Shown here piece by piece: positions 14,495-48,181 of a stretch of 64,000 nt of DNA (its first letter is position 1; each line of letters begins with the position of its first letter). The position numbers and the translations under genes were made by a program. The notes beneath the pieces were generated by a model that worked only from the letters and a program-made list of their open reading frames with translations, was not told where the DNA came from and did not search any database. Source of the DNA: Pinibacter soli (lineage in GTDB: Bacteria; Bacteroidota; Bacteroidia; Chitinophagales; Chitinophagaceae); the NCBI RefSeq assembly GCF_029961145.1, contig NZ_JASBRG010000008.1, forward strand, positions 1 to 64,000, in the 5' to 3' direction.

Positions 14495-14941
14495 ATGCTA
14501 TCAAACAAAGCGCAGTACGCCATCCATGCATTAACGTATTTGGGTGAGCGATATCAGCAAGGATATATACCGATCAATCAAATCGCGGAAGAAAGGAAGA
14601 TTCCCTATAAGTTTCTTGAGGCCATTTTATTGGAATTGAGAAAAGCTGGCATTTTGGGAAGTCGCACCGGAAAGGGCGGCGGCTATTATCTAACCAAAGC
14701 ACCAGAAGAAATCATGCTGGTGCAGATCATGCGGGCAATGGACGGTCCAGTGGCACTCCTGCCGTGTGTGAGTAAAGTATTTTATGAGCCTTGTCGCATT
14801 TGTCCCTACCCGGAGCCGAAATGTCCCATCAGAGGTGCCTTTTTAGAGGTGCGCGATGTAACCTTAAAAGTACTGGGTGGGAAGTCATTACGCGATCTAA
14901 TAAATAAAGATGTAAATTTTCCATCTGATTTTTCTATTTGA
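14495..14941 (+). CDS. Rrf2 family regulator, probable sulfur/cysteine regulator
   Basis: A 148-residue regulator. The N-terminal winged helix (1-70) is typical of Rrf2: MLSNKAQYAIHALTYLG, then INQIAEERKIPYKFLEAIL, and a wing at GSRTGKGGGYYL. Four cysteines follow at 91, 100, 103 and 110 (C-x8-C-x2-C-x6-C), a spacing able to hold an Fe-S cluster or to sense redox. The frame is open 14 codons further upstream, but MLSNKAQYA is the family start. It sits directly before the sulfate-assimilation genes, and identical operator-promoter modules precede cysJ and the TonB receptor gene. By analogy to CymR/IscR-type regulators I infer control of cysteine supply. It is not shown that it binds those sites. 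Confidence 0.85.
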   Translation: MLSNKAQYAIHALTYLGERYQQGYIPINQIAEERKIPYKFLEAILLELRKAGILGSRTGKGGGYYLTKAPEEIMLVQIMRAMDGPVALLPCVSKVFYEPCRICPYPEPKCPIRGAFLEVRDVTLKVLGGKSLRDLINKDVNFPSDFSI

Positions 14942-14973
14942 TAATCAATTGGATAAAAAATTTTCTAATAATT

Positions 14974-15017
14974 CCTATAAAAATTATAGGAGATATAGGG
15001 AATACTCTTTATTTTCG
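14974..15017 (+). promoter_or_regulatory. Operator and -7 box of the cysJ transcript
   Basis: The dyad CCTATAAAAATTATAGG (14974-14990) has 7-bp arms and lies 20 nt before the -7 box TATTTTCG (15010-15017). It therefore occupies the place of a -33 element. The TonB receptor gene of the cluster has the dyad CTACTAAATTAGTAG and the -7 box TATTTTTG at exactly the same spacing. The sequence between is also alike (ACTCTTTATTTT versus GACTCTTATTTT). The likely binder is the adjacent Rrf2 protein (inference). Confidence 0.6.
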
Positions 15018-15044
15018 TACCACTAATCGAATATGGTATTAAAC

Positions 15045-15077
15045 ATGTCACATATTAAATGTTGTTGTTCACGGTAG
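15045..15077 (+). CDS. Cysteine leader peptide MSHIKCCCSR
   Basis: A 10-codon frame with ATG at 15045 and stop TAG at 15075-15077 encodes MSHIKCCCSR, with three consecutive TGT codons (15060-15068). It begins about 28 nt after the -7 box, hence in the transcribed leader of cysJ, and is followed by an antiterminator/terminator pair. A leader peptide rich in the amino acid made by the pathway is the hallmark of transcription attenuation. Ribosome stalling at Cys codons when charged Cys-tRNA is low would permit read-through. Confidence 0.7.
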   Translation: MSHIKCCCSR

Positions 15078-15083
15078 CTTGCC

Positions 15084-15140
15084 GGGGGGCCGAACATTTA
15101 TGTACGTTTTTACATTGCCCTTCTTAACGGAGGGCTTTTT
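15084..15140 (+). promoter_or_regulatory. Cysteine attenuator: antiterminator and terminator
   Basis: The terminator hairpin is GCCCTTC (15117-15123) with GGAGGGC (15129-15135), one G-U pair, a 5-nt loop and a T5 tract (15136-15140), 14 nt before the cysJ ATG. The upstream run GGGGGGC (15084-15090) can pair over 7 positions with the same GCCCTTC arm, giving an exclusive antiterminator. The run lies 7 nt after the leader-peptide stop. A ribosome that completes the peptide would cover it and favour termination; one stalled at the Cys codons would leave it free. All elements are visible; the mechanism is inferred. Confidence 0.65.
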
Positions 15141-15154
15141 ATTAAAAATCAGCC

Positions 15155-17029
15155 ATGAGTAACGAACAGTTCACGATAACATCACCATTATTTACTGCTA
15201 ACGAGAAGCAGCAGGTGCAACAATTATTAAAGAGTTTTGAACCGCAGCAACTGCAATGGCTTGCCGGATATTTAACCGGATTGAACCAGGCAAACAAGCA
15301 AATACTTGACCTTCTAAACCAGTTCCCTAACGTGCAGGAGACGGTCGCGCCGGCTGAGGTTGCAAATGTTTCGGCCACACCAGTGACCGTTTTGTTTGGT
15401 TCCAAATCCGGCAACAGCAAGAGTGTAGCGAAATCTTTACATGAAAAATTGGTGGCAAGGGGTTTATCTGTTTCCCTTCAGGACATGAACCAGTACAATG
15501 CCACAAAGTTGAAAGACGAAAAATACCTGCTCGTTATCGTTAGTACCCACGGTGAAGGAGATCCTCCTCCGGCAGCTGAAGATCTACATGCGTTTATCCA
15601 CAACCGTAAAGCACCTAAACTTGGTGGCGCAAAATATGCAGTACTTGCACTGGGCGATCAGAGTTATGTTAACTTCTGCCAGACTGGGAAAGACTTTGAC
15701 AAACGTTTGGCAGAACTGGGCGGCGATAGAATTGCCGACAGGGTAGATGCTGATGTGGACTTTGAAGAAGCCGCTGAACAATGGATCGAAAATGTTACTA
15801 CCAAATTACTAGCACAGCTTAATCATACAAACGGTACTTCCGTTGTGGCAAAATCAACTGTAGCAACAGTAGCAGCGCCTGCAGTGAAGAAAGTTGTTTA
15901 CAATAGAAAAAATCCTTTTGCAGCAACCGTTCTTGAGAAAGTGCAATTGAACGGTCGCGGTTCGCAAAAGAAAACATATCATTTGGAGCTGTCACTCGAA
16001 GGCAGCGGCTTGACATATTTGCCAGGTGACACTGTTGGTATTTTTGCAAAAAATAATTCCACACTGGTAAGCGAAGTGTTGGCACAAACCAAATGGGATG
16101 GCGCTTCTACACTCGTTTACAAAGATCACTTACTTTCTCTCGAAGAAATTCTTACAAGTCATGTAGAGTTAACAACAGTTTCCGGTGTATTGCTGGAGAA
16201 ATTGTTGCACTATGCGGAGCAAAAGAAAAATGAAAAAGATGCGGCGGCATTAAAAACCATTCTCGACAACAAAAAAGAATTGGTTGCTTTTCTTTACGGA
16301 AAAGATGTGCTTGACATCGTTCTTGATTATGCCCACGGCATCACTGCAGAAGAGTTCATCAACCTTGCATTGCCATTACAAGCGAGACTGTATTCTATCG
16401 CATCTTCCATCAAAGAGCATGAAGAGGAAGTGCATTTAACCATCGGGCAGGTATTGTTTGAAACCTGCGGAAGGGCACGCAAAGGTGTTTGCTCGAACCA
16501 CATTGCGGAGTTGTTGAATGTTGGCGATTCTGTAGATGTTTTCATAGAAAAAAACGAATCTTTCCGTTTACCGGAAAATGAAAATACGCCGGTGATTATG
16601 GTTGGCCCTGGCACTGGTATCGCGCCTTTCAGAGCTTTCGTTGAAGAAAGAGCGGCGACAGGAGCAAAGGGAAAAAACTGGTTGTTCTTTGGTGATCGCA
16701 ATTTCACCACCGACTTCCTTTACCAGCTTGAATGGCAGCGTCACCTGAAAAGCGGAGCGCTTACGCAAATGAATACAGCGTTCTCCCGCGACACCGATAA
16801 AAAAATTTATGTACAACATCGCTTGCAACAAAATGCGGTGGAAATATATAAATGGCTGAAAGAAGGCGCTCACTTCTACATCTGCGGTGACGCCAAACAA
16901 ATGGCGAGGGACGTGCGAAACACATTGATCGACATCGTAGAAAAACAAGCAGCCATCAGCCACGAAGAAGCCGTGCATTTTGTGAAAGAATTGATTAAGG
17001 CTGGACGCTTACAAGAAGACGTCTACTAA
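15155..17029 (+). CDS. cysJ: Assimilatory sulfite reductase flavoprotein (CysJ type)
   Basis: A 624-residue NADPH:sulfite reductase flavoprotein that passes electrons from NADPH through FAD and FMN to the CysI haemoprotein. An N-terminal extension (1-75) is followed by a flavodoxin domain with the FMN phosphate loop FGSKSGNS (81-88) and VSTHGEGDPPPA. The ferredoxin-reductase part has RLYSIASS for FAD (about 412-419), GVCSNHIAELL, and an NADP-binding motif MVGPGTGIAPFRAFVEER near residues 481-498. It ends LQEDVY, like true CysJ proteins. It is the first structural gene of the cluster, expressed through the Cys-leader attenuator, with cysI 152 bp downstream. Confidence 0.93.
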   Translation: MSNEQFTITSPLFTANEKQQVQQLLKSFEPQQLQWLAGYLTGLNQANKQILDLLNQFPNVQETVAPAEVANVSATPVTVLFGSKSGNSKSVAKSLHEKLVARGLSVSLQDMNQYNATKLKDEKYLLVIVSTHGEGDPPPAAEDLHAFIHNRKAPKLGGAKYAVLALGDQSYVNFCQTGKDFDKRLAELGGDRIADRVDADVDFEEAAEQWIENVTTKLLAQLNHTNGTSVVAKSTVATVAAPAVKKVVYNRKNPFAATVLEKVQLNGRGSQKKTYHLELSLEGSGLTYLPGDTVGIFAKNNSTLVSEVLAQTKWDGASTLVYKDHLLSLEEILTSHVELTTVSGVLLEKLLHYAEQKKNEKDAAALKTILDNKKELVAFLYGKDVLDIVLDYAHGITAEEFINLALPLQARLYSIASSIKEHEEEVHLTIGQVLFETCGRARKGVCSNHIAELLNVGDSVDVFIEKNESFRLPENENTPVIMVGPGTGIAPFRAFVEERAATGAKGKNWLFFGDRNFTTDFLYQLEWQRHLKSGALTQMNTAFSRDTDKKIYVQHRLQQNAVEIYKWLKEGAHFYICGDAKQMARDVRNTLIDIVEKQAAISHEEAVHFVKELIKAGRLQEDVY

Positions 17030-17181: not shown

Positions 17182-18891
17182 ATGAACGAAGATAAAAGCA
17201 AACTTTCCGAAGTAGAGCATATAAAAGAGAGAAGTCAATACCTGCGTGGTACATTGCCTGAGAGCCTGGACGACCAGGTGTCTGGTAACTTGTTTGCGCA
17301 GGATCAGCAACTCATAAAATTTCACGGTTCATATGTACAGAGCGACCGTGAGTTAGACAAAGAGCGCAAGGCGCAAAAGCTGGAGCCCTTGTATTCGTTC
17401 ATGATCCGTGTGCGTGTACCGGGTGGTGTGGCTACGCCAAAACAATGGATCGACCTCGACAATATTGCTGATAAATACGGCATGCCTACGCTGAAACTCA
17501 CAACAAGACAGGCTTTCGAGTTGCACAGCATTCTAAAGCATAACCTGAAAAATACGATCAAAGAGATCAATGATTCATTGTTGAGCACCATCGCAGCCTG
17601 CGGTGATGTGAACAGAAACGTGATGAACACAGTGAATCCAAACACCAGCTACATTCACGATGATGTGCAGGATGTTGCAAGACAAATCAGCGATCACCTG
17701 AACCCAAGAACTTCTTCTTACTATAAAATATGGTTGAATGATGAAGTGGTTGCGGGCAATGGTTTAACAGAAGAAATAGAAGAACCGATCTACGGAAAAG
17801 TATATCTGCCAAGAAAATTCAAGATCACACTCGCAATTCCTCCGTACAACGATACAGACGTTTTTGCGCATGACCTTGGTTTGATCGCAATAGAAAAAGA
17901 CAAAAAACTGCTCGGCTTCAATATCAGCGTTGGTGGCGGTATGGGAATGACTTTCGGTGACAACACAACGCATCCTCGTCTTGGCAATGTAATTGGTTTT
18001 GCACCAACCGACAAGGTTGTTGACGTGTGCGAAAAAATATTGACCATTCAACGCGACTACGGCAACAGGGAAAATCGTCGTTTATCGAGAATGAAATATA
18101 CCATTGAAAGAATTGGTTTGGACTTCTTTACAGTGGAACTCAATAAAAGATTAGGCTACGATATCGAACCGGCAAGACCATTCAAATTCACTACTAACGG
18201 CGATAGTTATGGTTGGGTGAAAGGCGCCAATGGTAAATGGTTCATCACGCTGTTTGTAGAAGGCGGCCGCGTAAAAGACACGGAGAAATATCCGCTTCGT
18301 ACCGGTCTTCGTGAGATCGCAAAAATCAGCGATGGTGATTTCCGCCTCACTGGTAACCAAAACGTAGTGCTTGGAAACATCAGCGATAGGAAGAAACCAG
18401 AGATCGACAAGCTTTTAAAGCAGTACAATATTTTACCTGAGCAGGATAAAACGCCTTTGAGACTGCATTCTATGGCTTGCGTAGCGCTGAATGTTTGTCC
18501 GCTGGCAAATGCCGAAGGTGAAAGATACCTCCCAGAACTGGTAGACAAAATCGAAGGTTTGCTTGGAAAACATAAACTCCAAAACGAGCCGATCACCATT
18601 CGTATGACCGGTTGCCCTAACGGTTGCGGTCGTCCCTACTTAGGTGAAATTGGCTTTGTAGGAAGAGCTCCTGGAAAATACAACCTTTACCTCGGTGCAT
18701 CTTTCGAAGGTGACAGGATGAACGTTCTTTACAAAGAATCATTAAGCGAAGAAGAGATCTTGAACACGCTCGATCCGCTGATCGGCCAGTTTGCCGCGGA
18801 AAAAGGGAAAGACGAGCATTTCGGAGACTTCCTGGTAAGAAAAAAAGTAATTGAACATAAGAATTTGACCACAGATTTTCATGGAGAGTGA
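17182..18891 (+). CDS. cysI: Assimilatory sulfite reductase haemoprotein (CysI)
   Basis: A 569-residue sirohaem and 4Fe-4S enzyme that reduces sulfite to sulfide by six electrons. The cluster ligands are Cys433 and Cys439 (CVALNVCPLANAEGERY) and Cys478 and Cys482 (MTGCPNGCGRPYLGEIGFVG), at the spacing and near the positions of the enterobacterial enzyme. Sulfite-binding Arg/Lys segments are present in the N-terminal half (RVRVPGGVATPKQW, LKLTTRQAFELH). Length is normal. It requires CysJ as electron donor and sirohaem made by the products of the next gene and of the cysG-TauE fusion. Confidence 0.95.
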   Translation: MNEDKSKLSEVEHIKERSQYLRGTLPESLDDQVSGNLFAQDQQLIKFHGSYVQSDRELDKERKAQKLEPLYSFMIRVRVPGGVATPKQWIDLDNIADKYGMPTLKLTTRQAFELHSILKHNLKNTIKEINDSLLSTIAACGDVNRNVMNTVNPNTSYIHDDVQDVARQISDHLNPRTSSYYKIWLNDEVVAGNGLTEEIEEPIYGKVYLPRKFKITLAIPPYNDTDVFAHDLGLIAIEKDKKLLGFNISVGGGMGMTFGDNTTHPRLGNVIGFAPTDKVVDVCEKILTIQRDYGNRENRRLSRMKYTIERIGLDFFTVELNKRLGYDIEPARPFKFTTNGDSYGWVKGANGKWFITLFVEGGRVKDTEKYPLRTGLREIAKISDGDFRLTGNQNVVLGNISDRKKPEIDKLLKQYNILPEQDKTPLRLHSMACVALNVCPLANAEGERYLPELVDKIEGLLGKHKLQNEPITIRMTGCPNGCGRPYLGEIGFVGRAPGKYNLYLGASFEGDRMNVLYKESLSEEEILNTLDPLIGQFAAEKGKDEHFGDFLVRKKVIEHKNLTTDFHGE

Positions 18892-19034: not shown

Positions 19035-20591
19035 ATGAATACGCCAAAGAAAATACGATCTAAAGTGTACATCACGGGAGCCGGTCCTGGCGATGAAGGC
19101 TTGCTGACGTTGAAGGCAAAAGAAGTATTACAAAAAGCCGATGTTGTTTTGTACGACAACCTTGTAAACCGTCGCTTGCTTGACTTTTGCAAACCGGAAG
19201 CAAACAAGATTTATGTAGGCAAATTGCCTTTTGCATGTGCAAACAGGCAAGACGCCATTCATGAAAAACTGCTGGAGTACGCTGTAGATGGCAATATCGT
19301 CGTTCGTCTCAAAGGTGGTGATCCATTCGTATATGGCCGAGGCGCGGAAGAAGCGGATTATTTGATAAAACACGGAATTGATTTTGAAATAATTCCCGGT
19401 GTAACGGCCGGTATTGCGGTTCCTGCTTATGCGGGTATACCGGTCACACATCGTGAAGCATCGACAGGAGTGTTGTTTGTAACGGCACATCAAAAAGAAA
19501 CTGCCGATAAACAAATCATCAACTGGCCTTTGCTCGCAGCGTTCGACGGAACGATAGTGTTTTACATGGGCGTGAAAAATTTACCGCAGGTAGTACAAAA
19601 CCTATCTGCTCACGGTAAATCTACAGATACACCCATCGCAATCATCGAGCATGGAACTACGCCACTGCAAAGAACAGTAACCGGCACACTTGACAACATT
19701 GAAAGCCTTGCAGCTGAAAAACAAATCGGCATGCCAGCGCTGATCGTTGTAGGTGAAGTGGTAAAATATCACAAACCTTTAGAGTGGTTCGAAAGCAAGC
19801 CGCTCACACACAAACATATTTTGCTGACACATGCCAGCAACTCTTTGAAAAATTTGTATGCTGATCTTGTTGCAGAAGGCGCTATGGTTACACATGTTCC
19901 TTTGATCGACATAGAAATTGCAGAAGAGAACGAAGCATTGCAAAACGAAATTGCAAATCTGCATCAATACAACTGGCTGGCGTTTACATCTGTTGCCGGT
20001 GTGCACGCTTTTTTCAAACACCTGGCCAAAGCAGGAAAAGACGCACGCTATCTGCACAATTGCAAAGTGGCGACTGTAGGCAAAGAAACCAGAACAGTAT
20101 TGAAGCACTATGGCATTGACAGCGATGTAACGCCAAATATTTTCACAGGACAACAAATGGCGCTTTATCTGTTACATCAATGTCCGCAGCCTTACGAATT
20201 GCATTTGCTGCATCCAACAAGCAACAAAGCCTTGACAGGTTGGATAGAAGACTTGCGCCAACTTGGAGCAACTGTTACGCAAGTAACAGCTTATGAAAAT
20301 ACAGAACCTGATTTTGATGAAGGCGAACTGAAGCAATTGCAATCAAAATTCGATGCGATCACTTTTGCAAGTCCATCAGCAGTAGATGCAGTTGAAAAAT
20401 TACTAGCAGAAAACAAACTTGATTTTGATAAAGCAAATGTGGTGTTCTCCATTGGCCCGAGCACAACAGCAGCTTTGAAGAAAGCAGGTTTTACAAACAT
20501 AACAGAATCGTTTGCGGCAAATGGCGATGCACTGGCAAAGACAATTGTGTCAAACAGTATAGAACAACATCTGTCCACCCTAAACAACTAA
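19035..20591 (+). CDS. cobA-hemD: Uroporphyrinogen-III C-methyltransferase / uroporphyrinogen-III synthase fusion
   Basis: A 518-residue bifunctional enzyme of sirohaem synthesis. Residues ~10-250 are the SUMT methyltransferase: VYITGAGPGDEGLLTLKA (SAM site) and RLKGGDPFVYGRG (91-103), with GVTAGIAVPAYAGIPVTHR after. Residues ~262-508 are a HemD-type uroporphyrinogen-III synthase (HILLTHASNSLKNLY, FTSVAGVHAFF, FASPSAVDAVEKLL, SIGPSTTAALKKAG). It would close hydroxymethylbilane to uroporphyrinogen III and methylate it to precorrin-2. Oxidation and iron insertion are supplied by the CysG-type domain at 27808. Such fusions occur in several phyla. Here it sits with sulfite reductase, the sirohaem user. 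It is 9 bp from cysE, hence co-transcribed. Confidence 0.92.
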   Translation: MNTPKKIRSKVYITGAGPGDEGLLTLKAKEVLQKADVVLYDNLVNRRLLDFCKPEANKIYVGKLPFACANRQDAIHEKLLEYAVDGNIVVRLKGGDPFVYGRGAEEADYLIKHGIDFEIIPGVTAGIAVPAYAGIPVTHREASTGVLFVTAHQKETADKQIINWPLLAAFDGTIVFYMGVKNLPQVVQNLSAHGKSTDTPIAIIEHGTTPLQRTVTGTLDNIESLAAEKQIGMPALIVVGEVVKYHKPLEWFESKPLTHKHILLTHASNSLKNLYADLVAEGAMVTHVPLIDIEIAEENEALQNEIANLHQYNWLAFTSVAGVHAFFKHLAKAGKDARYLHNCKVATVGKETRTVLKHYGIDSDVTPNIFTGQQMALYLLHQCPQPYELHLLHPTSNKALTGWIEDLRQLGATVTQVTAYENTEPDFDEGELKQLQSKFDAITFASPSAVDAVEKLLAENKLDFDKANVVFSIGPSTTAALKKAGFTNITESFAANGDALAKTIVSNSIEQHLSTLNN

Positions 20592-20600
20592 TAAACGAAT

Positions 20601-21413
20601 ATGGCGAATCAATATCCCGGATATATACTCAGCAAAAACATTCCTCAGAAAGAGGCGGTAATAAAGTTTGCACAGGATGTGATCAATTATCTTTTCCCAA
20701 TTGTGGAAAATGAACAGGCATTTCTTAACAAGCACCAACGCAAAGCAGAGGCTTTGAAAAACGGCTTGCTTGATATTCTATACTCATTTGATGAAAAGAG
20801 CAAATACTATGAAGCAAATATTTGCGATCCGTTTTTTTCATCTTTGAACGAGATAAAAGAAGAGTTGGTGATTGATGCAAATGCATTGTTGGAATTCGAT
20901 CCGGCTGCAAAAAGCATTGATGAAGTGATCATTACTTATCCCGGATTTCTTGCAGTAGCGGCGTACAGAATTGCGAACAAACTCTGCAGTTTGAAATTGC
21001 CGATAGTGCCACGCATCATTACGGAATGGGCGCATTCAGTAACAGGCATTGACATTCATCCCGGTGCAACTATTGGAGTGCCTTTTATTATTGATCATGG
21101 AACAGGTGTGGTAATTGGAGAAACAACGGTGATCGGAAAGAACGTGAAACTATACCAGGGCGTTACGTTGGGCGCATTGGCGGTAAAAAAAGAAACAACT
21201 GGTCAGCGTCACCCAACTATTGAAGATGGCGTGATCATTTATGCCAACAGCACAATCCTTGGCGGCGAAACTGTGATAGGCCGCGACTCAATTGTAGGAG
21301 GAAACTGTTTTGTCACCTACAGCATTCCGGCGCACAGCATCGCTTATCACCAACCCGTGGTAACTGTAAAAGATAAGAGAGATTATAACGAACCGTTGAA
21401 TTGGGTGATTTAA
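20601..21413 (+). CDS. cysE: Serine O-acetyltransferase (CysE/EpsC type)
   Basis: A 270-residue acetyltransferase making O-acetylserine from serine and acetyl-CoA. An N-terminal helical domain (1-140) precedes a left-handed beta-helix of hexapeptide repeats (about 145-250): IHPGATIGVPFIIDHGTG, then VVIGETTVIGKNVKLYQGVT. Its length and the long N-terminal helical part resemble the EpsC branch. It starts 9 bp after cobA-hemD and precedes cysK, the enzyme that uses its product. The C-terminus ends NWVI, and an Ile at the end is the usual residue for docking into CysK to form cysteine synthase. Confidence 0.92.
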   Translation: MANQYPGYILSKNIPQKEAVIKFAQDVINYLFPIVENEQAFLNKHQRKAEALKNGLLDILYSFDEKSKYYEANICDPFFSSLNEIKEELVIDANALLEFDPAAKSIDEVIITYPGFLAVAAYRIANKLCSLKLPIVPRIITEWAHSVTGIDIHPGATIGVPFIIDHGTGVVIGETTVIGKNVKLYQGVTLGALAVKKETTGQRHPTIEDGVIIYANSTILGGETVIGRDSIVGGNCFVTYSIPAHSIAYHQPVVTVKDKRDYNEPLNWVI

Positions 21414-21425
21414 AATATAAAAATT

Positions 21426-21510
21426 AAAAAGTAAAAAGTCAAAAATGGATATTTCCGAAAGATGAAAAACAAAACCAGATAGTCACGCTATTTTGACTTT
21501 TGCTTTTTGA
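21426..21510. repeat. A/T-rich inverted repeat between cysE and cysK
   Basis: AAAAAGTAAAAAGTCAAAAA (21426-21445) pairs imperfectly with TTTTGACTTTTGCTTTTTGA (21491-21510), built of the phrases AAAAGTCAAAA and AAAAGTAAAA. The same phrase type recurs at 46122-46185. It ends 44 bp before the cysK start. Confidence 0.55.
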
Positions 21511-21553
21511 GTTTTTGACTTTAACTCCAACCAAAAAATAAAAACGAAAAACA

Positions 21554-22465
21554 ATGATCGCTAACAACATTCTAGAAACAATTGGTAATACACCCCACGT
21601 AAAGATCAACAGACTGTTTGGTGATAAACATAAAGTGTACGTAAAACTGGAGCGAGCCAATCCTGGCGCCAGCATTAAAGATCGTATTGCATTGGCAATG
21701 ATCGAAGATGCAGAGAAGAAAGGCTTGTTGCACAAAGACAGCGTTATCATAGAACCAACATCTGGTAACACTGGTATCGGCCTTGCAATGGTAGCAGCAG
21801 TAAAAGGTTACAAAATCATTTTGGTAATGCCCGAAAGCATGAGCATCGAACGCAGAAGATTGATGAGTTTGTACGGTGCTTCTTTCGAACTGACTCCAAG
21901 AGAGAAAGGTATGAAAGGCGCTATTGAAAAAGCAAAAGAACTTGTTGAAGCAACTCCACATGCATGGATGCCGCAACAATTCGATAACCCTGCAAACACA
22001 GAAGTGCATCGTCAAACAACTGCTCAGGAAATTTTGAAAGATTTTCCAAACGGTGTTGATTACATCATTACAGGTGTTGGTACAGGTGGTCACATCACAG
22101 GTGTGGCGGAAGTGTTGAAAGCGAAATTCCCTAAAACAAAAGTATTTGCGGTAGAGCCGGAATTGTCACCAGTATTAAGCGGTGGTAGCCCGGGGCCTCA
22201 CCCATTGCAAGGTTTAGGAGCAGGTTTTATTCCTTCAATTTTGGATACAAAAATATTGGACGGTGTTATAGAAGTAGGTAAAGAAGAATCTTTCGACTAC
22301 GCACAACGTGCAGCAAAAGAAGAAGGTCTGTTCATCGGTATTTCAAGCGGCGCAGCATTAGCAGCAGTAGCGAAAAAATTGGGTGAAATTCCGGAAGGCA
22401 GCACAGTGTTAACGTTTAACTATGATACAGGAGAAAGATATTTGTCTATCGACGGACTTTTTTAG
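21554..22465 (+). CDS. cysK: Cysteine synthase (O-acetylserine sulfhydrylase)
   Basis: A 303-residue pyridoxal-phosphate enzyme that makes cysteine from O-acetylserine and sulfide. The Schiff-base lysine is Lys42 in [15 protein letters not shown]. The substrate loop TSGNTG is at 69-74 and the phosphate-binding Gly-rich loop [10 protein letters not shown] near 175. The C-terminal [11 protein letters not shown] is as in typical CysK, and length is normal. It follows cysE in the cluster, so substrate production and use are together. Confidence 0.95.
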
Positions 22466-22484
22466 TTGATGCTTCGCATCTTTT

Positions 22485-22591
22485 TTGCCACAGAGACACA
22501 GAAGCACTGAAAGGAAGTTGGAGGAAAAAGGAATTTAAAGTAATTGTGTTTCTGAAAATAAAATCTCTGTTCCTCTGTACTTCTGTGGCAA
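22485..22591. repeat. Inverted repeat TTGCCACAG between cysK and cysH
   Basis: TTGCCACAG (22485-22493) and CTGTGGCAA (22583-22591) are perfect 9-bp outer arms. The following phrases also match imperfectly (ACACAGAAGCAC against GTACTTCTGTG). The right arm runs into the leader of cysH, which makes the longer open frame upstream of the true cysH start an artefact. Confidence 0.55.
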
Positions 22592-22608
22592 ATCTCAAAT
22601 TAAAAACT

Positions 22609-23343
22609 ATGAGTGAAAATATTTCAAAGACTTTGCAGGATATCATCGATGCTCTCGAGCCGTTAACAGCTGAAGAGCGCTTGCAGAAAATAGTTTCCTT
22701 GTATAATGAAGGCGTTGTTTTCTCAACATCTTTAGGACAGGAAGATCAAGCGATCTCTTATATGATTGCAAAGCAAAAACTTCCGATAGGAATATTCACG
22801 CTGGATACAGGAAGACTTTTTCAGGAAACATATGAGTTGATCGATAAAACGATCGCCCGTTACAAAGTGCCTGTTAAAGTGTATTTCCCTAATGCGGCAC
22901 GTGTAGAGGAAATGGTAAATGCGAAAGGCACAAACAGTTTCTACGAGTCTGTTGAAAACCGCAAAGAATGTTGCTTCATTAGAAAGGTAGAACCGTTGAA
23001 CAGAGCATTGCAAGGGGCAAAAATCTGGATCACCGGTTTGCGGGCGGACCAGTCGGCAAACAGAAACGAAGTGAAGGTAGCAGAGTACGATGCAGCGAGA
23101 AACCTGATTAAAATCAACCCACTAATTGACTGGACTTTTGAACAGTTATTACAATATCTTGCGGCTAACAACATTCCTTACAATCCACTGCACGACAAAG
23201 GATTTTTGAGCATCGGATGTCAGCCTTGCACAAGAGCAATCGAGCCGGGAGAGGACATCAGAGCCGGAAGATGGTGGTGGGAAACCTCTCAAAAAGAGTG
23301 CGGATTGCATGGCGTGAATGTAGCAGAGAAAGTGCGGTCGTGA
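22609..23343 (+). CDS. cysH: Adenylyl-sulfate (APS) reductase, thioredoxin/glutathione type
   Basis: A 244-residue enzyme reducing activated sulfate to sulfite. Cys pairs 121/122 (KECCFIRKVEPL) and 204/207 (IGCQPCTRA) are the 4Fe-4S ligands that mark APS-using enzymes, and the catalytic Cys231 lies in KECGLH. It therefore most likely uses APS directly, which fits the absence of an APS kinase (cysC) gene in the cluster. The nucleotide site has VFSTSLGQEDQ. The start is placed at the ATG at 22609 (MSENISKT), because the 21 codons upstream lie in the inverted repeat. cysD follows after 126 bp. Confidence 0.93.
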   Translation: MSENISKTLQDIIDALEPLTAEERLQKIVSLYNEGVVFSTSLGQEDQAISYMIAKQKLPIGIFTLDTGRLFQETYELIDKTIARYKVPVKVYFPNAARVEEMVNAKGTNSFYESVENRKECCFIRKVEPLNRALQGAKIWITGLRADQSANRNEVKVAEYDAARNLIKINPLIDWTFEQLLQYLAANNIPYNPLHDKGFLSIGCQPCTRAIEPGEDIRAGRWWWETSQKECGLHGVNVAEKVRS

Positions 23344-23414
23344 ATGGGCGCTTATTATTCACGTTTCACATTGACCGTTGACGAACAGAATTTTTTAAAT
23401 GAAATAAAATCATA

Positions 23415-23452
23415 AACCAAGCCGACAATTCATGATTTTCGTCAGCTTGGTT
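23415..23452. repeat. Hairpin before cysD
   Basis: AACCAAGCCGAC (23415-23426) pairs with GTCAGCTTGGTT (23441-23452), 11 of 12, around a 14-nt loop. There is no T-tract. It lies in the cysH-cysD gap, 17 nt before the cysD ATG, so it could affect cysD translation or mRNA processing. Confidence 0.55.
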
Positions 23453-23469
23453 AACTTAAACCAAATAGA

Positions 23470-24378
23470 ATGTCAAGTAAAAGTATTCCGTCTTTTCCAC
23501 GCAGCCTTGAGGATGAAAGCATCTATATACTAAGGGAAGTGGCTGCGCAGTTTGAACGTCCTGCGTTGTTGTTTAGTGGAGGTAAAGACTCAATTACACT
23601 CGTTAGATTGGCACAAAAAGCTTTTTGGCCTGGAAAAATTCCTTTTCCATTGGTGCATGTTGATACTGGTCACAACTTTCCTGAAACAATCGCTTTTCGT
23701 GACTGGCTCGTGAAAGAAACCGGTGCAGAACTGATCGTGCGTTATGTACAGGATAGCATTGATGCAGGAAAAGTAAAAGAAGAAACAGGTAAATATGCAA
23801 GCCGTAACGCTTTGCAGACTGTTACCTTGTTAGATACCATTGAAGAATTCAAATTTGATGCTTGTATAGGTGGTGCGAGAAGAGATGAAGAAAAGGCGCG
23901 TGCAAAAGAAAGAATCTTCTCTGTGAGAAATGATTTCGGTCAGTGGGATCCTAAAAAACAAAGACCGGAATTATTTGGTTTGCTAAACGGAAAGATTAAC
24001 CGTGGAGAAAACGTACGTGTGTTCCCAATCAGCAACTGGACAGAGCTTGATGTGTGGACCTACATAAAAGAAGAAAATCTTCAAATTCCTTCCATCTATT
24101 ATTCACACGAAAGAAGCGTGATCACAAGAGATGGCATGTTGTGGCCAAAATCTGAATATTTGAACACAACTGAACAGGAAGTTCCGTTCAATCATACAGT
24201 TCGATTCCGCACAGTAGGTGATATGACCTGTACAGCTGCAGTAGCATCTACAGCAGATAATATCGACGATATCATTACCGAAATTCTTGCAGCAAAAATC
24301 TCTGAACGCGGCGCCCGCATGGACGATCAGCGCAGTGAAGCAGCGATGGAGCAGAGGAAGAAAGACGGGTATTTTTAA
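23470..24378 (+). CDS. cysD: Sulfate adenylyltransferase subunit 2
   Basis: A 302-residue ATP sulfurylase small subunit of the PP-loop family that makes APS from ATP and sulfate, with GTP hydrolysis by CysN. PP-loop SGGKDS is at 36-41, followed by LVHVDTGHNFPETI. The family segment FDACIGGARRDEEKARAKER is present, and the C-terminal end MEQRKKDGYF is typical of CysD. It is the third gene after cysE-cysK. Its partner cysN lies 5 kb downstream, after the TonB receptor and the cysG-TauE fusion, an unusual separation for cysD/cysN. Confidence 0.95.
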   Translation: MSSKSIPSFPRSLEDESIYILREVAAQFERPALLFSGGKDSITLVRLAQKAFWPGKIPFPLVHVDTGHNFPETIAFRDWLVKETGAELIVRYVQDSIDAGKVKEETGKYASRNALQTVTLLDTIEEFKFDACIGGARRDEEKARAKERIFSVRNDFGQWDPKKQRPELFGLLNGKINRGENVRVFPISNWTELDVWTYIKEENLQIPSIYYSHERSVITRDGMLWPKSEYLNTTEQEVPFNHTVRFRTVGDMTCTAAVASTADNIDDIITEILAAKISERGARMDDQRSEAAMEQRKKDGYF

Positions 24379-24797: not shown

Positions 24798-27776
24798 ATG
24801 AAAAAGTCATTTATCAATAACATTAAAATTGTTATAGTCATTTTAGTCTCTACATTAATATTTACCAATGCGAAGGCCCAGTTGAATGGCGCCATTGAGG
24901 TGTCGGGCAAAGTAACCGACGACCGTCAATTGGCATTGGATGGTATTTCTATACAGATTAAAGGAACCAACACAGGAACTGTAAGTGATAGCCTCGGTAA
25001 TTTCAAATTGGTTACAGCAAAACAACCTCCATTCGTTTTAGTGCTCACAGGCGTTGGCTTTGCACCAAAAGAAGTAAACGTAAAATCATTAAGCGATAAA
25101 ATCAGGGTCCAACTTTTCACACAAACCTTTTATGCAAACGAAGTAGTAGTAACTGCGAGCCGTCAGTCTGAAAAGATAATGCGTTCTCCGGTTGCAATTG
25201 AGAAACTTGATATCCGCGCATTAAAGGAAACTCCGGCGCCGTCTTTCTACGATGCATTGGGTAACGTAAAAGGTGTTCAGCTTACCACTTCTTCTCTCAC
25301 ATTTAAAGTACCTAACACAAGAGGCTTCAACATTCCAAACAACTTCCGCTTCATGCAGCTAGTAGACGGCGTGGATATGCAAGCCGCTACATTGGGTGTG
25401 CCGTTGGGGAATGCGATCGGGCCAACTGAGTTGGACATCCAAACAGTGGAAATTACTCCCGGTGCAGCTTCTGCATTGTACGGCATGAACGCGATCAACG
25501 GGATGGCTAACCTCATTACAAAAAATCCTTTTCAATACCAGGGCTTGAGCATCTATCAAAGAACAGGTTTTAATCATGTTGATGGTATTGATCATTCTCC
25601 TTCCTTATTGACAGAATCAGCTTTGCGTTATGCAAAAGCTTTCAACAATAAATTCGCTTTCAAATTAAACGTAGATTATTTGCGTGGTACCGACTGGCGT
25701 TCTGACAATCATAGCGACCAGAATCCAAACAACTTAAAATCTGCTAACCCTCAGTTCCCTGAATTGAACAATGCAAATGCAGCGTTTGATGGTTGGAACA
25801 AGTACGGCGATGATGCCCTTGCAGGTAGTAACACGGTTTCCATCACTGGTTTAAATATCAACGGACAGGCAAACCAAACACTGACAGTGGCTCGTACGGG
25901 TTATTGGGAAAAAGACCTGGTGAGTCCGACCGTTGACAACCTGAAATTGGACGGATCTGTTTACTATCGTTTTACACCAAAAACAGAAATCTCCTATAGC
26001 TACCGTTTCGGTAAAATGGATGGTGTTTTCCAACGTGGTAACAAAGTGCAGCTTGATAACGTGCGTGTGCAAAATCACAAGTTGGAATTGAAAGGACAAG
26101 ACTTTTTAGTACGCACTTATGTGTCTCTTGAAAATACAGGAGACTCGTACAACGTGAAACCTCTTGCAGACAACCTTGATCTGTACAGCGGTGGAAGCGC
26201 GACTGCGTGGAGTGCAAAATATAAAACGGCTTTACAACAATACGGTACCAGTCATGGCGGAGCATTGAACTCCAGTAATCTTGCAGAGGCAACCATCTTC
26301 GCTCGTCAGGCAGCAGATGCAGGACGCGTAGAGCCGGGCACAAAAGAATTCAATGATCTGGTAAATACCATTCGCCACATCAATAACTGGGATATTAAAT
26401 CGTCTGCTATTCCTGATGCGCCTGTAACGGGCGGTGCAGCTTTGATTCAGAAAAGCCGCATGTATCATGCAGAAGGTCAGTGGGATCTTTCACGTCACGT
26501 AAAGTATTTCAACCTTTTGATTGGTGCAGATACGCGTATCTATGAAATTATTCCTGACGGCAACAACTTCGTAGATTTCAGCAGACCAATCGATCAGCGT
26601 AACAAGCCTGTAATGGTTGACGGCAAAGTGCCCGATTCCAGCAACTTTGGTGCAAATGTATACTACAAGAAATTCGGTGGCTTTGCACAGGTTACTAAAA
26701 CATTCTTCGACGAGAAACTGAAATTATTCGGTTCTTTAAGATATGATTATAACCCTGAGTTTACCGGAAAATTCACACCGCGCATAGCCGCAGTATATAC
26801 GGCTAACAAAATTCATAATTTCCGTTTCACTTATCAACAGGGTTATCGTTTCCCGGCATTGTTTGAAGCATTGTCTTACGTAAACAATGGTCGAGTGAAA
26901 CGTGTGGGTAGCCTTCCTTATATCAACGAAGGACTTGGGTATTTGAATAATAGCTATACACAACAATCTGTTATCAACTTTAACGCAGCAGTGAAGGCGC
27001 AGGGCAATACCGATGCAGCGGCATTGGCAAACAGGAATTTACTTGTTTGGGCAAATCTTCCAAATGCTACACCTGAAAAGATCAACTCATTTGAAGTTGG
27101 TTACAAAACAGTATTGTTTGAAAATAAAGTGATCGTAGATATCGACGCATACTCAAATGTTTACACAGGTTTTCTCGGCCAGGTGCAAGTATATGTACCT
27201 AAGGGAGAAACAGTGGGTTCTGATGCTGCAGTAATCGCAATGCTTGACCGCAACCGCGATGCAACAACCGCAAGTGGTGGCAACTCAGCGAGCAAGGGTC
27301 AGGATCGCTATCGTGTGTATACGAACGCAAAAAATAAATATCACAGTTACGGGTCAGCTTTGGCGGTTACTTATAATTTTTATAAGAAATTTACAATCTC
27401 TGGTAACGTAAGCTATAACGATATTAAAACCAATGCTACGAACGACGTTTTTGTAACAGGGTTTAATACGCCAAAATGGACGACGAACGTATCATTTGGT
27501 AATCGTGAAGTAATAGAAAATGTTGGCTTTAATATTGTGTGGAAATGGCAGGATTCGTTCCTTTGGGAAAGTCCTTTGGTAACCGGTAAAGTAAATGCAT
27601 TCAATACAATTGATGCGCAGGTAACATACAGTTTGCCAAAATTGAGAAGCACGGTTAAAGTAGGAGCAGCGGATCTGTTTAACAATAGATATTATCAATA
27701 TGCAGGCGGCCCGACAATTGGTGGATTGTATTACGCAACGATCATAGTGGACGGCTTGTTCCAGGGAGACAAGTAG
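24798..27776 (+). CDS. TonB-dependent receptor in the sulfur cluster
   Basis: A 992-residue outer-membrane receptor. The signal peptide ends near ...IFTNAKA. A CarboxypepD_reg-like domain follows (about 33-110, VSGKVTDDRQLALDGISI), then a plug domain (about 115-235, VVVTASRQSEKI and VEITPGAASALYGMNAINGM) and a beta-barrel. The last residues, VDGLFQGDK, lack the usual terminal aromatic; Phe lies five residues from the end. The gene has its own operator-promoter and a Cys-rich leader peptide. It is followed after 31 bp by the cysG-TauE fusion and later cysN. I infer uptake of a sulfur-containing nutrient. No SusD-like partner is present, and the exact ligand cannot be read from the sequence. 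Confidence 0.9.
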   Translation: MKKSFINNIKIVIVILVSTLIFTNAKAQLNGAIEVSGKVTDDRQLALDGISIQIKGTNTGTVSDSLGNFKLVTAKQPPFVLVLTGVGFAPKEVNVKSLSDKIRVQLFTQTFYANEVVVTASRQSEKIMRSPVAIEKLDIRALKETPAPSFYDALGNVKGVQLTTSSLTFKVPNTRGFNIPNNFRFMQLVDGVDMQAATLGVPLGNAIGPTELDIQTVEITPGAASALYGMNAINGMANLITKNPFQYQGLSIYQRTGFNHVDGIDHSPSLLTESALRYAKAFNNKFAFKLNVDYLRGTDWRSDNHSDQNPNNLKSANPQFPELNNANAAFDGWNKYGDDALAGSNTVSITGLNINGQANQTLTVARTGYWEKDLVSPTVDNLKLDGSVYYRFTPKTEISYSYRFGKMDGVFQRGNKVQLDNVRVQNHKLELKGQDFLVRTYVSLENTGDSYNVKPLADNLDLYSGGSATAWSAKYKTALQQYGTSHGGALNSSNLAEATIFARQAADAGRVEPGTKEFNDLVNTIRHINNWDIKSSAIPDAPVTGGAALIQKSRMYHAEGQWDLSRHVKYFNLLIGADTRIYEIIPDGNNFVDFSRPIDQRNKPVMVDGKVPDSSNFGANVYYKKFGGFAQVTKTFFDEKLKLFGSLRYDYNPEFTGKFTPRIAAVYTANKIHNFRFTYQQGYRFPALFEALSYVNNGRVKRVGSLPYINEGLGYLNNSYTQQSVINFNAAVKAQGNTDAAALANRNLLVWANLPNATPEKINSFEVGYKTVLFENKVIVDIDAYSNVYTGFLGQVQVYVPKGETVGSDAAVIAMLDRNRDATTASGGNSASKGQDRYRVYTNAKNKYHSYGSALAVTYNFYKKFTISGNVSYNDIKTNATNDVFVTGFNTPKWTTNVSFGNREVIENVGFNIVWKWQDSFLWESPLVTGKVNAFNTIDAQVTYSLPKLRSTVKVGAADLFNNRYYQYAGGPTIGGLYYATIIVDGLFQGDK

Positions 27777-27807: not shown

Positions 27808-29340
27808 ATGCAAGAAACACGAACGACAGAAAATAATTTATATCCTGTTTTTCTGAAACTGGAGAACCTTCACCTACTGATAGTGGGTGGAGGTTTTGTC
27901 GGTACAGAGAAAATGACTTCTGTAATGAACTGCTCTCCGGATGCAAGAGTTACAGTCGTGGCAAGGGAAATCAGCGCGGATATAAGAAACATGGTAATTG
28001 GCAATGACAACGTCGTGTTGCTGGAAAAACCTTTCGAAGCATCTGATCTTGATGGTAAGGACCTTGTTTTCGCAGCTACAGCAGACAGATCTTTAAATGC
28101 AGAAGTTAAAGCTGAAGCAGCAGAAAGAGGTATACTTGCCAATGTTGCCGACACGCCTGATTTATGTGATTTTTATTTGAGTAGCATTGTAAACAAAGGG
28201 CACTTAAAAATCGCCGTAAGCACAAATGGCAAATCACCTACCGTTGCAAAAAGATTGAAAGAAGTGTTCAATGAAATGCTTCCTGATGAATTGGAACAGG
28301 TATTGGACAACATGCAGCACATAAGACAAAGCCTTAACGGTGATTTTCACAACAAAGTGCAGCAGCTGAACAACATCACCAAAGTGTTGGTAGATAATCA
28401 AACACCGGTTGAAACGCCGCTTACAGTTGACCAGCCACCAATGGTAAGCGATAAAAAATGGAAACGCATTGTAACCTGGTGCATTTTTGCTTTTGTGTTC
28501 ATGGTTATCGGGCATGCCATTCTTTCTTATATACCATTTAAAGAAATAGCTGACTTTGGTAAAACAGCGCTTGGAAATATCGACCACGGTTGGTTTTTAC
28601 TCATGCTGTTAACGGGCTTTCTGGCTCAGTTTGTAGATGGTGCGTTGGGTATGGGTTATGGCGTTATTTCAACGAGCATTTTGCTTTCTGTTGGGGTAAA
28701 TCCGGCTATTGTGAGTAGCCGAGTGCACTCTGCACGTGTGTTCTCGAGCGCAGTGTCAGGATATAGCCACCGTAAGTTTGGTAATGTAAATAAAAAGCTA
28801 TTCAAGGCATTGGTAGTACCGGGGTGTATTGGAGCGATCGGGGGAGCGGTACTGGCTGTATATGCGAAGGAATCTGCACACATAGTAAGGCCAATACTTT
28901 CAGTGTACACTTTGTACCTGGGCATCCGTATCATAACAAAGGCATTTGCAAAAAGGAGAAAAGAAGGTAAGATAAAACATGCCGGATGGCTCGCTTCCGC
29001 AGGTGGTTTCATGGATGCCTTTGCAGGCGGCGGCTGGGGCTCATTGGTAACGAGTACATTATTATCAAAAGCAAAAAATCCACGTTACGTCGTTGGATCA
29101 GTTTGTTTGACAGAATTTTTTGTGGTGCTGTCAAGTACACTCACTTTTTTCATTCTTTTGAAAAGTTTGCCTTTGACAGATATTGCCGGTCTTATCATTG
29201 GTGGTTTGATAGCAGCGCCAATAGCAGCGAGATTAGTTGGTAAAATACCAATGAAATATATGCTCTTCGCAGTAGGCGGTTTGGTAAGTTTATCGAGCTT
29301 GAGAATATTGTGGATGGCAGCCTTGGAATTTTTAAAATAA
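27808..29340 (+). CDS. Precorrin-2 dehydrogenase domain fused to TauE/SafE permease
   Basis: A 510-residue fusion. Residues 1-200 match the N-terminal dehydrogenase/ferrochelatase module of CysG: YPVFLKLENLHLLIVGGGFV (Rossmann Gly at 27-29), then ANVADTPDLCDFYLSSIV with Asp115 at the catalytic aspartate position, and AVSTNGKSPTVAKRLKE. A linker with one extra helix (about 222-243) leads to a TauE/SafE (TSUP) transporter (about 258-510) with duplicated motifs GFLAQFVDGALGMGYGVIST and ASAGGFMDAFAGGGWGS. It would oxidise precorrin-2 and insert iron for sirohaem, and move sulfate, sulfite or a related anion across the inner membrane. There is no other sulfate transporter in the window. Confidence 0.85.
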   Translation: MQETRTTENNLYPVFLKLENLHLLIVGGGFVGTEKMTSVMNCSPDARVTVVAREISADIRNMVIGNDNVVLLEKPFEASDLDGKDLVFAATADRSLNAEVKAEAAERGILANVADTPDLCDFYLSSIVNKGHLKIAVSTNGKSPTVAKRLKEVFNEMLPDELEQVLDNMQHIRQSLNGDFHNKVQQLNNITKVLVDNQTPVETPLTVDQPPMVSDKKWKRIVTWCIFAFVFMVIGHAILSYIPFKEIADFGKTALGNIDHGWFLLMLLTGFLAQFVDGALGMGYGVISTSILLSVGVNPAIVSSRVHSARVFSSAVSGYSHRKFGNVNKKLFKALVVPGCIGAIGGAVLAVYAKESAHIVRPILSVYTLYLGIRIITKAFAKRRKEGKIKHAGWLASAGGFMDAFAGGGWGSLVTSTLLSKAKNPRYVVGSVCLTEFFVVLSSTLTFFILLKSLPLTDIAGLIIGGLIAAPIAARLVGKIPMKYMLFAVGGLVSLSSLRILWMAALEFLK

Positions 29341-44835: not shown

Positions 44836-46092
44836 TTAGAATATGCCTGCGAGTTCCAGGCTTTTTTTCTTGATGTTTCTTATTTCAACGTCTTCAATAA
44901 TTGAATCCGGCGCAACGATAAGTGATGTGCCGTTTTCTTTCCACCATTTGCCGTTTTTAAGCTCCGCAAAAGGGAGTACGCCTACAAGGTAGCTTCTGCT
45001 TTCAGAGGAGTGCCATTCTTCGATCCAATTGAATTTCTCTTTAGGAATGTTTTTCAGATCTGTAAAGCTTATGTACACTCTTATGTAAAAATCATCGCTT
45101 AGCTCATGCGGCGTGTGATGATACAATTTCTTATACTCGTATTTGTAATCGTAACGAAGCGATGAGATATCACTCAGCACCGCAGAAGCAGTAGGGAAGC
45201 TTCCGGCACCTTTTCCGTAAAAGAATTGCTTGTCGGCAAAACCACTTTCGATTACCACTCCATTGTATTCATTTTTTACAAATGATAAATGGTCGTCAGC
45301 CGAAACAAATTGTGGCAATACAAACGCCGCTACTTTTCCGTTCTTCAACTTCTTTGCTTGCGCTACCAGTTTTATCTGGAGATTTTTTTCTTTTGCAGCA
45401 TTTGCGTCCGTTGCATCAATATTTTGAATGCCATTGAACACGATGGCGTCGGGGTGAATCAGGATACCGTAAGCATGCGTGAGCAGGAATGCCCATTTGC
45501 TTACTGCATCATGTCCTTCTACATCAAGAGTTGGATCAGACTCGGCGAAGCCAAGTTGCTGTGCAAGGATAAGTGCTTGCTGGAAATCGAGTTTATCCTC
45601 AAACATTTTCGTAAGGATAAAGTTTGTAGAACCGTTTACGATTGCTTTTATGGAATGCAGCAAGTCGTTGTCATAGTATTCTTCCAGGTTACGGATAACA
45701 GGGATCGATGCACATGCCGCAGCTTCGCAAAGAAACGACTGTCCTGTAGTCTGTTGTAATTTTAAAATAGCCGGCAAGTGTTCAGCGATCATTTTTTTGC
45801 TGGCACTTACCACAGATTTTCCGTTGGTCAAAGCGGTGCTTACAATTTCAAATGCGGCATCCGCTTCGTTGATTACCTCTACAATCACATTGATCTCGGG
45901 ATCGTTCAGTAATACGTCCTTGTCTGTTGTAAATAAACTTGCCGGAGCATTTCTTTTTTTGTGCGCATCTTTAATACACACTTTTTTGATACTGGCTTTT
46001 AAAGACGGAGTTTGTTGTAAAACCTTATATAAACCTTCACCTACTACACCAAAACCAAAAAGACCGATCGTTAATTGCTTATGTGTTTCCAT
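44836..46092 (-). CDS. hom: Homoserine dehydrogenase
   Basis: A 418-residue NAD(P)-dependent dehydrogenase turning aspartate semialdehyde into homoserine, the precursor of methionine and threonine. The Rossmann start is TIGLFGFGVVGEGLYKVL. The catalytic region contains NGSTNFILTKMFEDKLDF and GFAESDPTLDVEGHDAVSKW, the homoserine dehydrogenase signature. The C-terminal ~100 residues (from about 318) are a regulatory-type extension without aspartokinase. It is the third gene of the operon behind the SAM riboswitch; the metB-type gene supplies the next methionine step. Confidence 0.93.
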   Translation of the reverse strand: METHKQLTIGLFGFGVVGEGLYKVLQQTPSLKASIKKVCIKDAHKKRNAPASLFTTDKDVLLNDPEINVIVEVINEADAAFEIVSTALTNGKSVVSASKKMIAEHLPAILKLQQTTGQSFLCEAAACASIPVIRNLEEYYDNDLLHSIKAIVNGSTNFILTKMFEDKLDFQQALILAQQLGFAESDPTLDVEGHDAVSKWAFLLTHAYGILIHPDAIVFNGIQNIDATDANAAKEKNLQIKLVAQAKKLKNGKVAAFVLPQFVSADDHLSFVKNEYNGVVIESGFADKQFFYGKGAGSFPTASAVLSDISSLRYDYKYEYKKLYHHTPHELSDDFYIRVYISFTDLKNIPKEKFNWIEEWHSSESRSYLVGVLPFAELKNGKWWKENGTSLIVAPDSIIEDVEIRNIKKKSLELAGIF

Positions 46093-48025: not shown

Positions 48026-48060
48026 AAATATTGTAAGTAGAAATTGTAAAGCATTATCTG

Positions 48061-48181
48061 ACTTATCTGTCCCGAATAAAATCCATCGGGGTGGAATTGG
48101 CACCTTACTTCTTCGAGTTGAATCGAATTGCAGGTTGCCAAGGCTTCAAAGGGCCATGTCCCTCAGCCTTTCTTGATAAGT
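48061..48181 (-). promoter_or_regulatory. SAM-I riboswitch
   Basis: Read on the minus strand, the P1 stem is ACTTATC (48181-48175) with GATAAGT (48067-48061). Between them lie the SAM-I hallmarks AGGCTGAGGGACATGGCCC, TGAAGCCTTGGCAACCT and AAGGTGCCAATTCCACC, then a GGGACAGATAAG closing segment. It binds S-adenosylmethionine and acts in the leader of the metB operon, switching it off at high SAM through the downstream terminator. Confidence 0.95.

Follow-up and report, generated by a model that had tools for sequence, protein, structure and literature searches.

The trp and his attenuators of E. coli are the classical model of ribosome-mediated transcription attenuation. Leaders rich in Cys codons are described for mycobacteria and their relatives, where, according to excerpts of the original study, short poly-Cys ORFs precede cys operons without a conserved terminator (Seliverstov 2005, PMC1262725). 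Experiments in M. smegmatis reportedly showed that a poly-Cys leader, called leaderless, takes part in the response to cysteine (Canestrari 2020, as summarized in passages of PMC13236596, PMC9031893 and PMC9094748). In Rhodobacterales, the uORFC-8-2 motif upstream of cysS combines a short ORF containing tandem Cys codons with an intrinsic terminator after it, as outlined in part of PMC8632094. Within the Bacteroidota, sections of PMC9723704 suggest leader-peptide attenuation for amino-acid operons of Flavobacterium psychrophilum, with pheA and hisG among the conserved 5′ elements, and short ORFs were noted in long 5′ UTRs of B. thetaiotaomicron (excerpts of PMC7366714). A literature search covering titles, the beginnings of abstracts, part of the hits and few subscription papers revealed no Cys-codon attenuator in Bacteroidota, although an earlier mention is possible. 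This agrees with a reading of the DNA made before from its letters alone (the sequence-only reading), which knew of no such case; yet attenuation in F. psychrophilum had been suggested.

Here, we describe an element upstream of cysJ in Pinibacter soli that is very probably a ribosome-mediated transcription attenuator sensing charged tRNA-Cys. It is located in the first 64,000 nucleotides of contig NZ_JASBRG010000008.1, hereafter called the window.

The cysJ leader of Pinibacter soli

The features of the locus are as follows.

14495–14941, + strand: Rrf2-family regulator gene (Pfam Rrf2, E 3e-32; NCBIfam Rrf2 superfamily above cut-off)
14974–14990, no strand: palindrome CCTATAAAAATTATAGG, candidate Rrf2 operator by sequence, putative function
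15010–15017, + strand: candidate −7 promoter element TATTTTCG, by sequence, one mismatch to TAnnTTTG
15033–15077, + strand: leader ORF MVLNMSHIKCCCSR, with an alternative start at ATG 15045 that gives MSHIKCCCSR; kept in three Pinibacter genomes
15040–15112, + strand: protector structure 1:2, in which 15040–15076 (with the Cys codons) pairs with 15080–15112 in the minimum-energy fold
15060–15068, + strand: three TGT Cys codons, proposed sensor; unchanged in three Pinibacter genomes
15075–15077, + strand: stop codon TAG of the leader ORF, by sequence
15084–15090, + strand: antiterminator element GGGGGGC, pairing with 15117–15123 (7 pairs, including 2 G-U)
15100–15115, + strand: small hairpin ATGTA...TACAT between antiterminator and terminator, from the fold
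15117–15140, + strand: intrinsic terminator GCCCTTC-TTAAC-GGAGGGC plus T-run (stem 15117–15123/15129–15135, T-run 15136–15140)
15155–17029, + strand: cysJ, first gene of the operon (NCBIfam TIGR01931 above cut-off)
17182–18891, + strand: cysI (NCBIfam TIGR02041 above cut-off)
19035–24378, + strand: remaining cysteine operon, with uroporphyrinogen methyltransferase/HemD at 19035, EpsC-type serine acetyltransferase at 20601, cysteine synthase at 21554, cysH at 22609 and cysD at 23470 (Pfam and NCBIfam)

The common strand and the order of the genes suggest that cysJ-cysI-cobA/hemD-cysE-cysK-cysH-cysD are co-transcribed, and the product of the operon is cysteine, as seen from the Pfam and NCBIfam identities of its genes. 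Therefore, the repeated codon of the leader matches the end product of the operon, as had been claimed from the sequence alone. The proposed frame MSHIKCCCSR with its codons TGT TGT TGT is indeed present (ATG at 15045–15047), and a further in-frame ATG at 15033 means that the ORF may have 14 codons (MVLNMSHIKCCCSR) instead of 10. The short leader ORF before cysJ thus contains a run of codons for the end product of its operon, and an intrinsic terminator is found between this ORF and the first gene, ending 14 nt upstream of the cysJ ATG (15155), exactly as proposed. A G-run had been placed at 15084–15090. The site is there, 7 nt past the leader stop, and consists of six G (15084–15089) followed by a C at 15090; its predicted pairing with the 5′ arm of the terminator comprises 7 bp, two of them G-U.

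Transcription is predicted to start near 15022, which would give a 5′ leader of 11 nt. The consensus TAnnTTTG is that of the −7 element at position −12 to −5 from the start (passages of PMC9723704). Since TATTTTCG is one base off this consensus, it is a weak promoter candidate; the element is strongly enriched across the group of leaders described below. The terminator starts 176 nt after rrf2, and the candidate promoter is located upstream of it. For the Rrf2 regulator itself, the CymR and IscR models of NCBIfam matched below cut-off only. It probably also controls the cys operon, adding control at the level of the promoter. A palindrome like CCTATAAAAATTATAGG is also present upstream of cysJ in most Flavihumibacter-group loci, and CTAC..GTAGACTA-like palindromes, perhaps Rrf2 operators, were seen by eye before and inside cysH, in other Chitinophagaceae operons.

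It should be mentioned that between cysD and cysN (29476) a TonB-dependent-receptor-like gene (24798–27776, by eye) and a fused siroheme-synthase/TauE-type gene (27808–29340) are found, relatives of which accompany cys operons in many of the relatives fetched. A SAM riboswitch (Rfam RF00162) is present at 48060–48182 (−), upstream of a cystathionine-synthase-like gene (46665–47849), and a homoserine-dehydrogenase-like gene (44836–46092, by eye) lies further on past the latter. In the cysJ leader, no Rfam family matched at gathering score, and a T-box or known riboswitch was rejected as its identity.

Predicted folding of the leader

The terminator hairpin alone has a predicted energy of −10.6 kcal/mol, which was matched by 2 of 200 shuffles. 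In the fold of the whole leader the region of the Cys codons is paired to the G-run stretch (z −1.75), and in the ribosome-free state this 1:2 structure hides most of the G-run in the minimum-energy fold. We then folded RNA of growing length (six lengths) with its 5′ part masked by a ribosome, the edges of which were set to textbook values. With no ribosome, there was not a single antiterminator pair at any of the six lengths, and the terminator had 7 of 7 pairs at 15135. A ribosome placed on Cys codon 1 or 3 gave 7 of 7 antiterminator pairs as long as the 3′ end of the RNA was between 15123 and 15133, and with the ribosome at the stop codon no antiterminator pair was formed and the terminator was again complete at 15135. 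In silico, there is thus an antiterminator that excludes the terminator and would become available once a ribosome stalls at the Cys codons. The stalling logic, which the sequence-only reading had taken over from classical attenuation, is reproduced in these predicted states.

For the complete leader with the ribosome stalled, the fold with the terminator (−16.4 kcal/mol) is lower in energy than that with the antiterminator enforced (−13.9 kcal/mol). Since the terminator is favoured at 15135 even under this condition, antitermination would have to be kinetic, with the antiterminator forming first and persisting. Compared to shuffles, the antiterminator pairing of the window is of modest strength (p = 0.027; p = 0.067 with a wider arm).

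Comparison with Pinibacter and Flavihumibacter

Two further genomes, P. aurantiacus MAH-26 and Chitinophagaceae bacterium 26-R-25, share 97% CysJ identity with the window. The ORF with its terminal CCC-Ser-Arg-stop is kept in all three Pinibacter genomes found, and so are the terminator and the G-run, which is 5 or 6 nt long. The leader peptides are MVLNMSHIKCCCSR, MVLNMSHIICCCSR and MVLNMSHNICCCSR; the changes outside the Cys codons are non-synonymous, at a mean column identity of 94% across three close genomes. Covariation was not significant in these leaders, which come from only 3 close genomes, and none of the antiterminators reached p < 0.05 in shuffles with the wider arm (p 0.067, 0.073 and 0.169).

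The same type of cysJ, with 55–58% CysJ identity, is present at ten loci of the Flavihumibacter group, most of them named Flavihumibacter and two otherwise. At nine of the ten, no ORF with two adjacent Cys codons was found within 350 nt upstream of cysJ; an Rrf2 gene is present in all five of these nine that were examined. The only one with a full Cys-codon attenuator is F. solisilvae 3-3 (L110). Its leader (L110 117–185; MRRSTIRFSCCCKARITGGVSL) is preceded by TAAATTTG, which ends 4 nt before the ATG, and a palindrome is also present at the locus. The terminator, GCCCTTC-CGATT-GAAGGGC, is located 53 nt past the Cys run and its 5′ arm GCCCTTC is identical to that of the window. This arm has a pairing partner downstream of the Cys codons (p 0.036), so that the antiterminator is clearer than that of the window. 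In stepwise folds with the ribosome on the last Cys codon the arm was paired upstream at every length, full length included, and with the ribosome at the stop codon or absent the terminator was formed at full length. The sequence-only reading had proposed to look at cys leaders of relatives, and this comparison speaks for it: with the same arm GCCCTTC in L110, the arrangement is shared by a second genus with this type of cysJ, but not throughout it.

Beyond these, cysJ matches across the family are only about 36–42% identical in all but 9 genomes. Most of the fetched matches of low identity sit in operons that begin with cysH; operon heads were therefore set by synteny, and cysJ matches were not used as orthologues.

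Cys-codon leaders in Bacteroidota

Within the window, 3 of 608 short ATG ORFs outside long same-strand ORFs contain CCC, and the cysJ leader is the only one of the three with a long ORF within 350 nt downstream. The decisive case against chance is the comparative one. A first set of 40 Chitinophagaceae stretches surrounding cysI, in most cases a single one for each genus, gave 41 loci together with the window; 120 stretches were added (43 Chitinophagaceae and 77 other Bacteroidia), altogether 161 hand-picked loci. A leader was counted if a short ATG ORF with at least 3 consecutive Cys codons was present within 350 nt upstream of a gene.

Cys runs are specific to the leaders of cys operons. A Cys-run ORF precedes the first cys gene at 24 of 41 loci and only 2 of 229 internal genes, and one of these two (cobA in L092) comes after a gap of 2.9 kb and may be the head of a second operon. 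Over all 161 loci, 61 Cys-run ORFs are on the strand of the operon and 4 on the opposite strand. Of 561 short ORFs preceding cys genes, 53 contain CCC, where 1.9 are expected from composition (about 28-fold); for the opposite strand the figure is 4 of 1245, and Val comes next in enrichment (7 vs 1.3 expected). A chance frame was rejected on account of this enrichment. Leaders with at least three adjacent Cys codons precede cys genes at 45 of 84 loci in Chitinophagaceae and at 12 of 77 in other Bacteroidia, the latter not being an unbiased rate since the last 20 stretches were picked partly from families with known leaders; among the 12 is a probable chance hit, L173, which overlaps the junction of cysH and cysD. 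The leaders of the relatives have the Cys codons in common and no evident shared sequence.

Of 59 Cys leaders, 39 have the promoter element TAnnTTTG within 60 nt upstream; for other short ORFs the figure is 82 of 1540. This count excludes two leaders without a label, in L083 and L094. Leaders that follow TTTG by 4 nt (L239, L260, L262 and L110) are predicted to begin at the transcription start, that is, to be leaderless.

An Rrf2 gene beside the operon tends to go along with the lack of a leader: a Cys leader is present at 4 of 34 loci with Rrf2 and at 36 of 110 without (Fisher p 0.017, uncorrected for kinship; 144 of 161 loci, 17 with too little upstream sequence being left out). Rrf2 and a Cys leader occur together at four loci (window, L206, L260 and L262), each of which carries a terminator; the script recognized three of these terminators, and the one in L206 was seen by eye.

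Output types

The terminator type is found before cysJ in the window and in F. solisilvae, before genes for serine acetyltransferase (L092), uroporphyrinogen methyltransferase (L097) and adenylylsulfate kinase (L185), and in the leaders of family f39, which precede a NirA/CysI-like reductase. Of 30 reductase loci of f39, 13 have an ORF in which two or more Cys codons are adjacent. In the f39 leader of L298, located roughly 150 nt upstream of the reductase gene, inspection by eye showed a TGT-TGC out of frame with the ATG, which may reflect decay of the leader or a sequence error.

Spacing was determined in 16 terminator-type loci, which include 3 from Pinibacter and 10 of family f39; F. solisilvae is absent from this set. 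Four of the original 20 candidates (L286, L287, L293 and L206) were dropped because the script saw no terminator, although in L286 and L206 one is visible by eye; the terminator script used on the 161 loci missed L092, L206, L260 and L262. In 13 of the 16, the terminator arm follows the Cys run at 45–52 nt; in the window the spacing is 48 nt. Compared to 351 control terminators, the 16 loci show greater complementarity of the stretch after the Cys codons to the arm (Mann-Whitney p 1.4e-6; Fisher combined p 2e-7), p values that overstate the evidence since the loci are related. Pairing with the arm reached p < 0.05 at 6 of 16 loci, compared to 35 of 351 controls. These six are L097 (0.006), L274 (0.012), L275 (0.003), L185 (0.020), L269 (0.030) and L277 (0.038); the ten with p ≥ 0.05 include the three Pinibacter loci. 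Shuffles with a narrower arm gave p 0.47 for L092, 0.31 for L206 and 0.34 for L262, values so high that the pairing has no individual support there. In L286, GGAGGCTGT is located 3 nt past the leader stop and is, by eye, a 9-base complement to ACAGCCTCC at the terminator.

Covariation counts in six f39 leaders were not above those of shuffles, and more cells pair than in slid versions; in L206, one base of the terminator and both its alternative partners differ together. Of the expectation that a short ORF and covarying stems would be conserved in relatives, the first part stood, as Cys-codon leaders recur in many other Bacteroidota, several with terminators; covariation was not significant.

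The leaders before cysH are different. Not one of 39 Cys-run ORFs before cysH has an intrinsic terminator by script. In the first batch of 20 cysH leaders, the spacer is rich in pyrimidines (0.62 vs 0.51 in 116 control upstream regions, p 2.6e-6) and poor in G (C over G 2.2 vs 1.4 in the controls), which would be compatible with Rho-dependent control, without being proof of it. A further type is seen in four leaders of family f40 before uroporphyrinogen methyltransferase (L170, L171, L254 and L255), which in minimum-energy folds inspected by eye have mutually exclusive stems reaching to near the start codon and no T-run; these are candidate translation attenuators.

Two other runs may be mentioned in this connection. 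Eight consecutive Cys codons plus two more are found 124 nt before a MetX-like gene in L157 (oriented position 5447), a gene that scores below the family cut-offs, and five consecutive Cys codons are located 189 nt before a homoserine dehydrogenase gene in L165 (oriented position 2845).

Discussion

The data support the interpretation of the cysJ leader as a cysteine-codon attenuator. According to the model, transcription would begin near 15022. When cysteine is plentiful, a ribosome translating the leader ORF would pass the three Cys codons, reach the stop codon and cover the G-run at 15084–15090; the terminator could then form and RNA polymerase would halt before cysJ. When cysteinyl-tRNA is scarce, the ribosome would stall at 15060–15068 and the 1:2 structure would be broken, and the freed G-run would pair with the 5′ arm of the terminator, so that the polymerase continues into the sulfate-assimilation operon. 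In the absence of a ribosome, the 1:2 structure is expected to keep the G-run and the terminator would win.

The Cys-codon ORF could also be a real sensor whose output is translation of cysJ or Rho-dependent termination, the hairpin being incidental. Such outputs have been proposed for the mycobacterial cys leaders, and they would suit the 39 leaders before cysH, none with a terminator by script, 20 of them with a pyrimidine-rich, G-poor spacer (Y 0.62 vs 0.51), as well as the four f40 leaders with alternative stems near the start codon in place of a terminator. We regard this explanation as improbable, however: the terminator of the window is a good one, complete with T-run, all 3 Pinibacter genomes have preserved it and F. 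solisilvae has a counterpart, and its distance from the Cys codons (48 nt) is one that terminator-type leaders of other families share. Still somewhat less probable is that the hairpin terminates the rrf2 transcript, with the ORF as a chance frame and the operon under Rrf2 promoter control only. An Rrf2 gene and a palindrome are indeed located immediately upstream of the leader, nine of ten Flavihumibacter-group loci do without a Cys leader, all five checked having Rrf2, and Rrf2 neighbours and Cys leaders tend towards mutual exclusion (4/34 vs 36/110; p 0.017). On the other hand, the terminator, 176 nt away from rrf2, is situated past the candidate promoter and ends 14 nt short of cysJ. In the survey, Cys runs at this position are about 28 times more frequent than expected, and a terminator is present at each of the four loci where an Rrf2 gene and a Cys leader coincide (window, L206, L260 and L262).

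The least credible of these alternatives is direct binding of a metabolite or of uncharged tRNA by a riboswitch or T-box, the ORF being incidental. A structured leader could in principle contain an aptamer, and a SAM riboswitch is present elsewhere in the window, but no Rfam family reached threshold in 14942–15200, where one weak match to a streptococcal sRNA (E 0.3) was obtained, and what the leaders of the relatives share is Cys codons, not an evident common sequence.

Beyond the window, we tentatively propose, as an idea nearly as probable as its negation, that Bacteroidota use poly-Cys leaders as a widespread cysteine sensor, partly in place of an Rrf2 repressor, for cysH, cysJ, cysI-like genes, cysC, cysE, cobA and perhaps metX and homoserine dehydrogenase. 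One sensor would then be combined with interchangeable outputs: an intrinsic terminator as in the window, a terminator-less pyrimidine-rich spacer, perhaps with Rho, as before cysH, or stems close to the start codon as in the f40 cobA leaders, and some leaders would start exactly at the predicted transcription start. For a phylum without such control in the literature searched, the window provides a concrete putative cysteine sensor of sulfate assimilation that is easy to test. If poly-Cys leaders with different outputs are as widespread in Bacteroidota as the survey suggests, the evolution of attenuators would become comparable within one phylum, down to the level of the genus, since in Flavihumibacter one species has the switch and others are without it.

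Like the trp and his attenuators, the leader of the window has codons for the end product in a short ORF, a 1:2 protector, a 2:3 antiterminator and a 3:4 terminator with a U-run before the first gene. It differs from them in its codon, which is Cys, in its host, a member of the Bacteroidota, in the very short leader of 10–14 codons and in an antiterminator that is weaker than the terminator. With the poly-Cys ORFs of mycobacteria it has in common the run of Cys codons before a sulfur/cysteine operon; unlike these it has an intrinsic terminator, and unlike the leaderless ones a predicted 5′ leader of 11 nt. The terminator-less cysH leaders of Chitinophagaceae are closer to the mycobacterial ORFs than the window is. 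The uORFC-8-2 motif, compared by its description, shares tandem Cys codons, an intrinsic terminator and the same proposed logic, but controls cysteinyl-tRNA synthetase in alphaproteobacteria, whereas the first gene in the window is cysJ, of sulfate assimilation. The candidates from F. psychrophilum belong to the same phylum and likewise have a leader peptide before an amino-acid biosynthesis operon; unlike the window, they include no cysteine case among those named in section 19 of PMC9723704. The mechanism is known from Actinobacteria and Rhodobacterales, and it is the spread and the varied outputs in Bacteroidota that are the more novel part.
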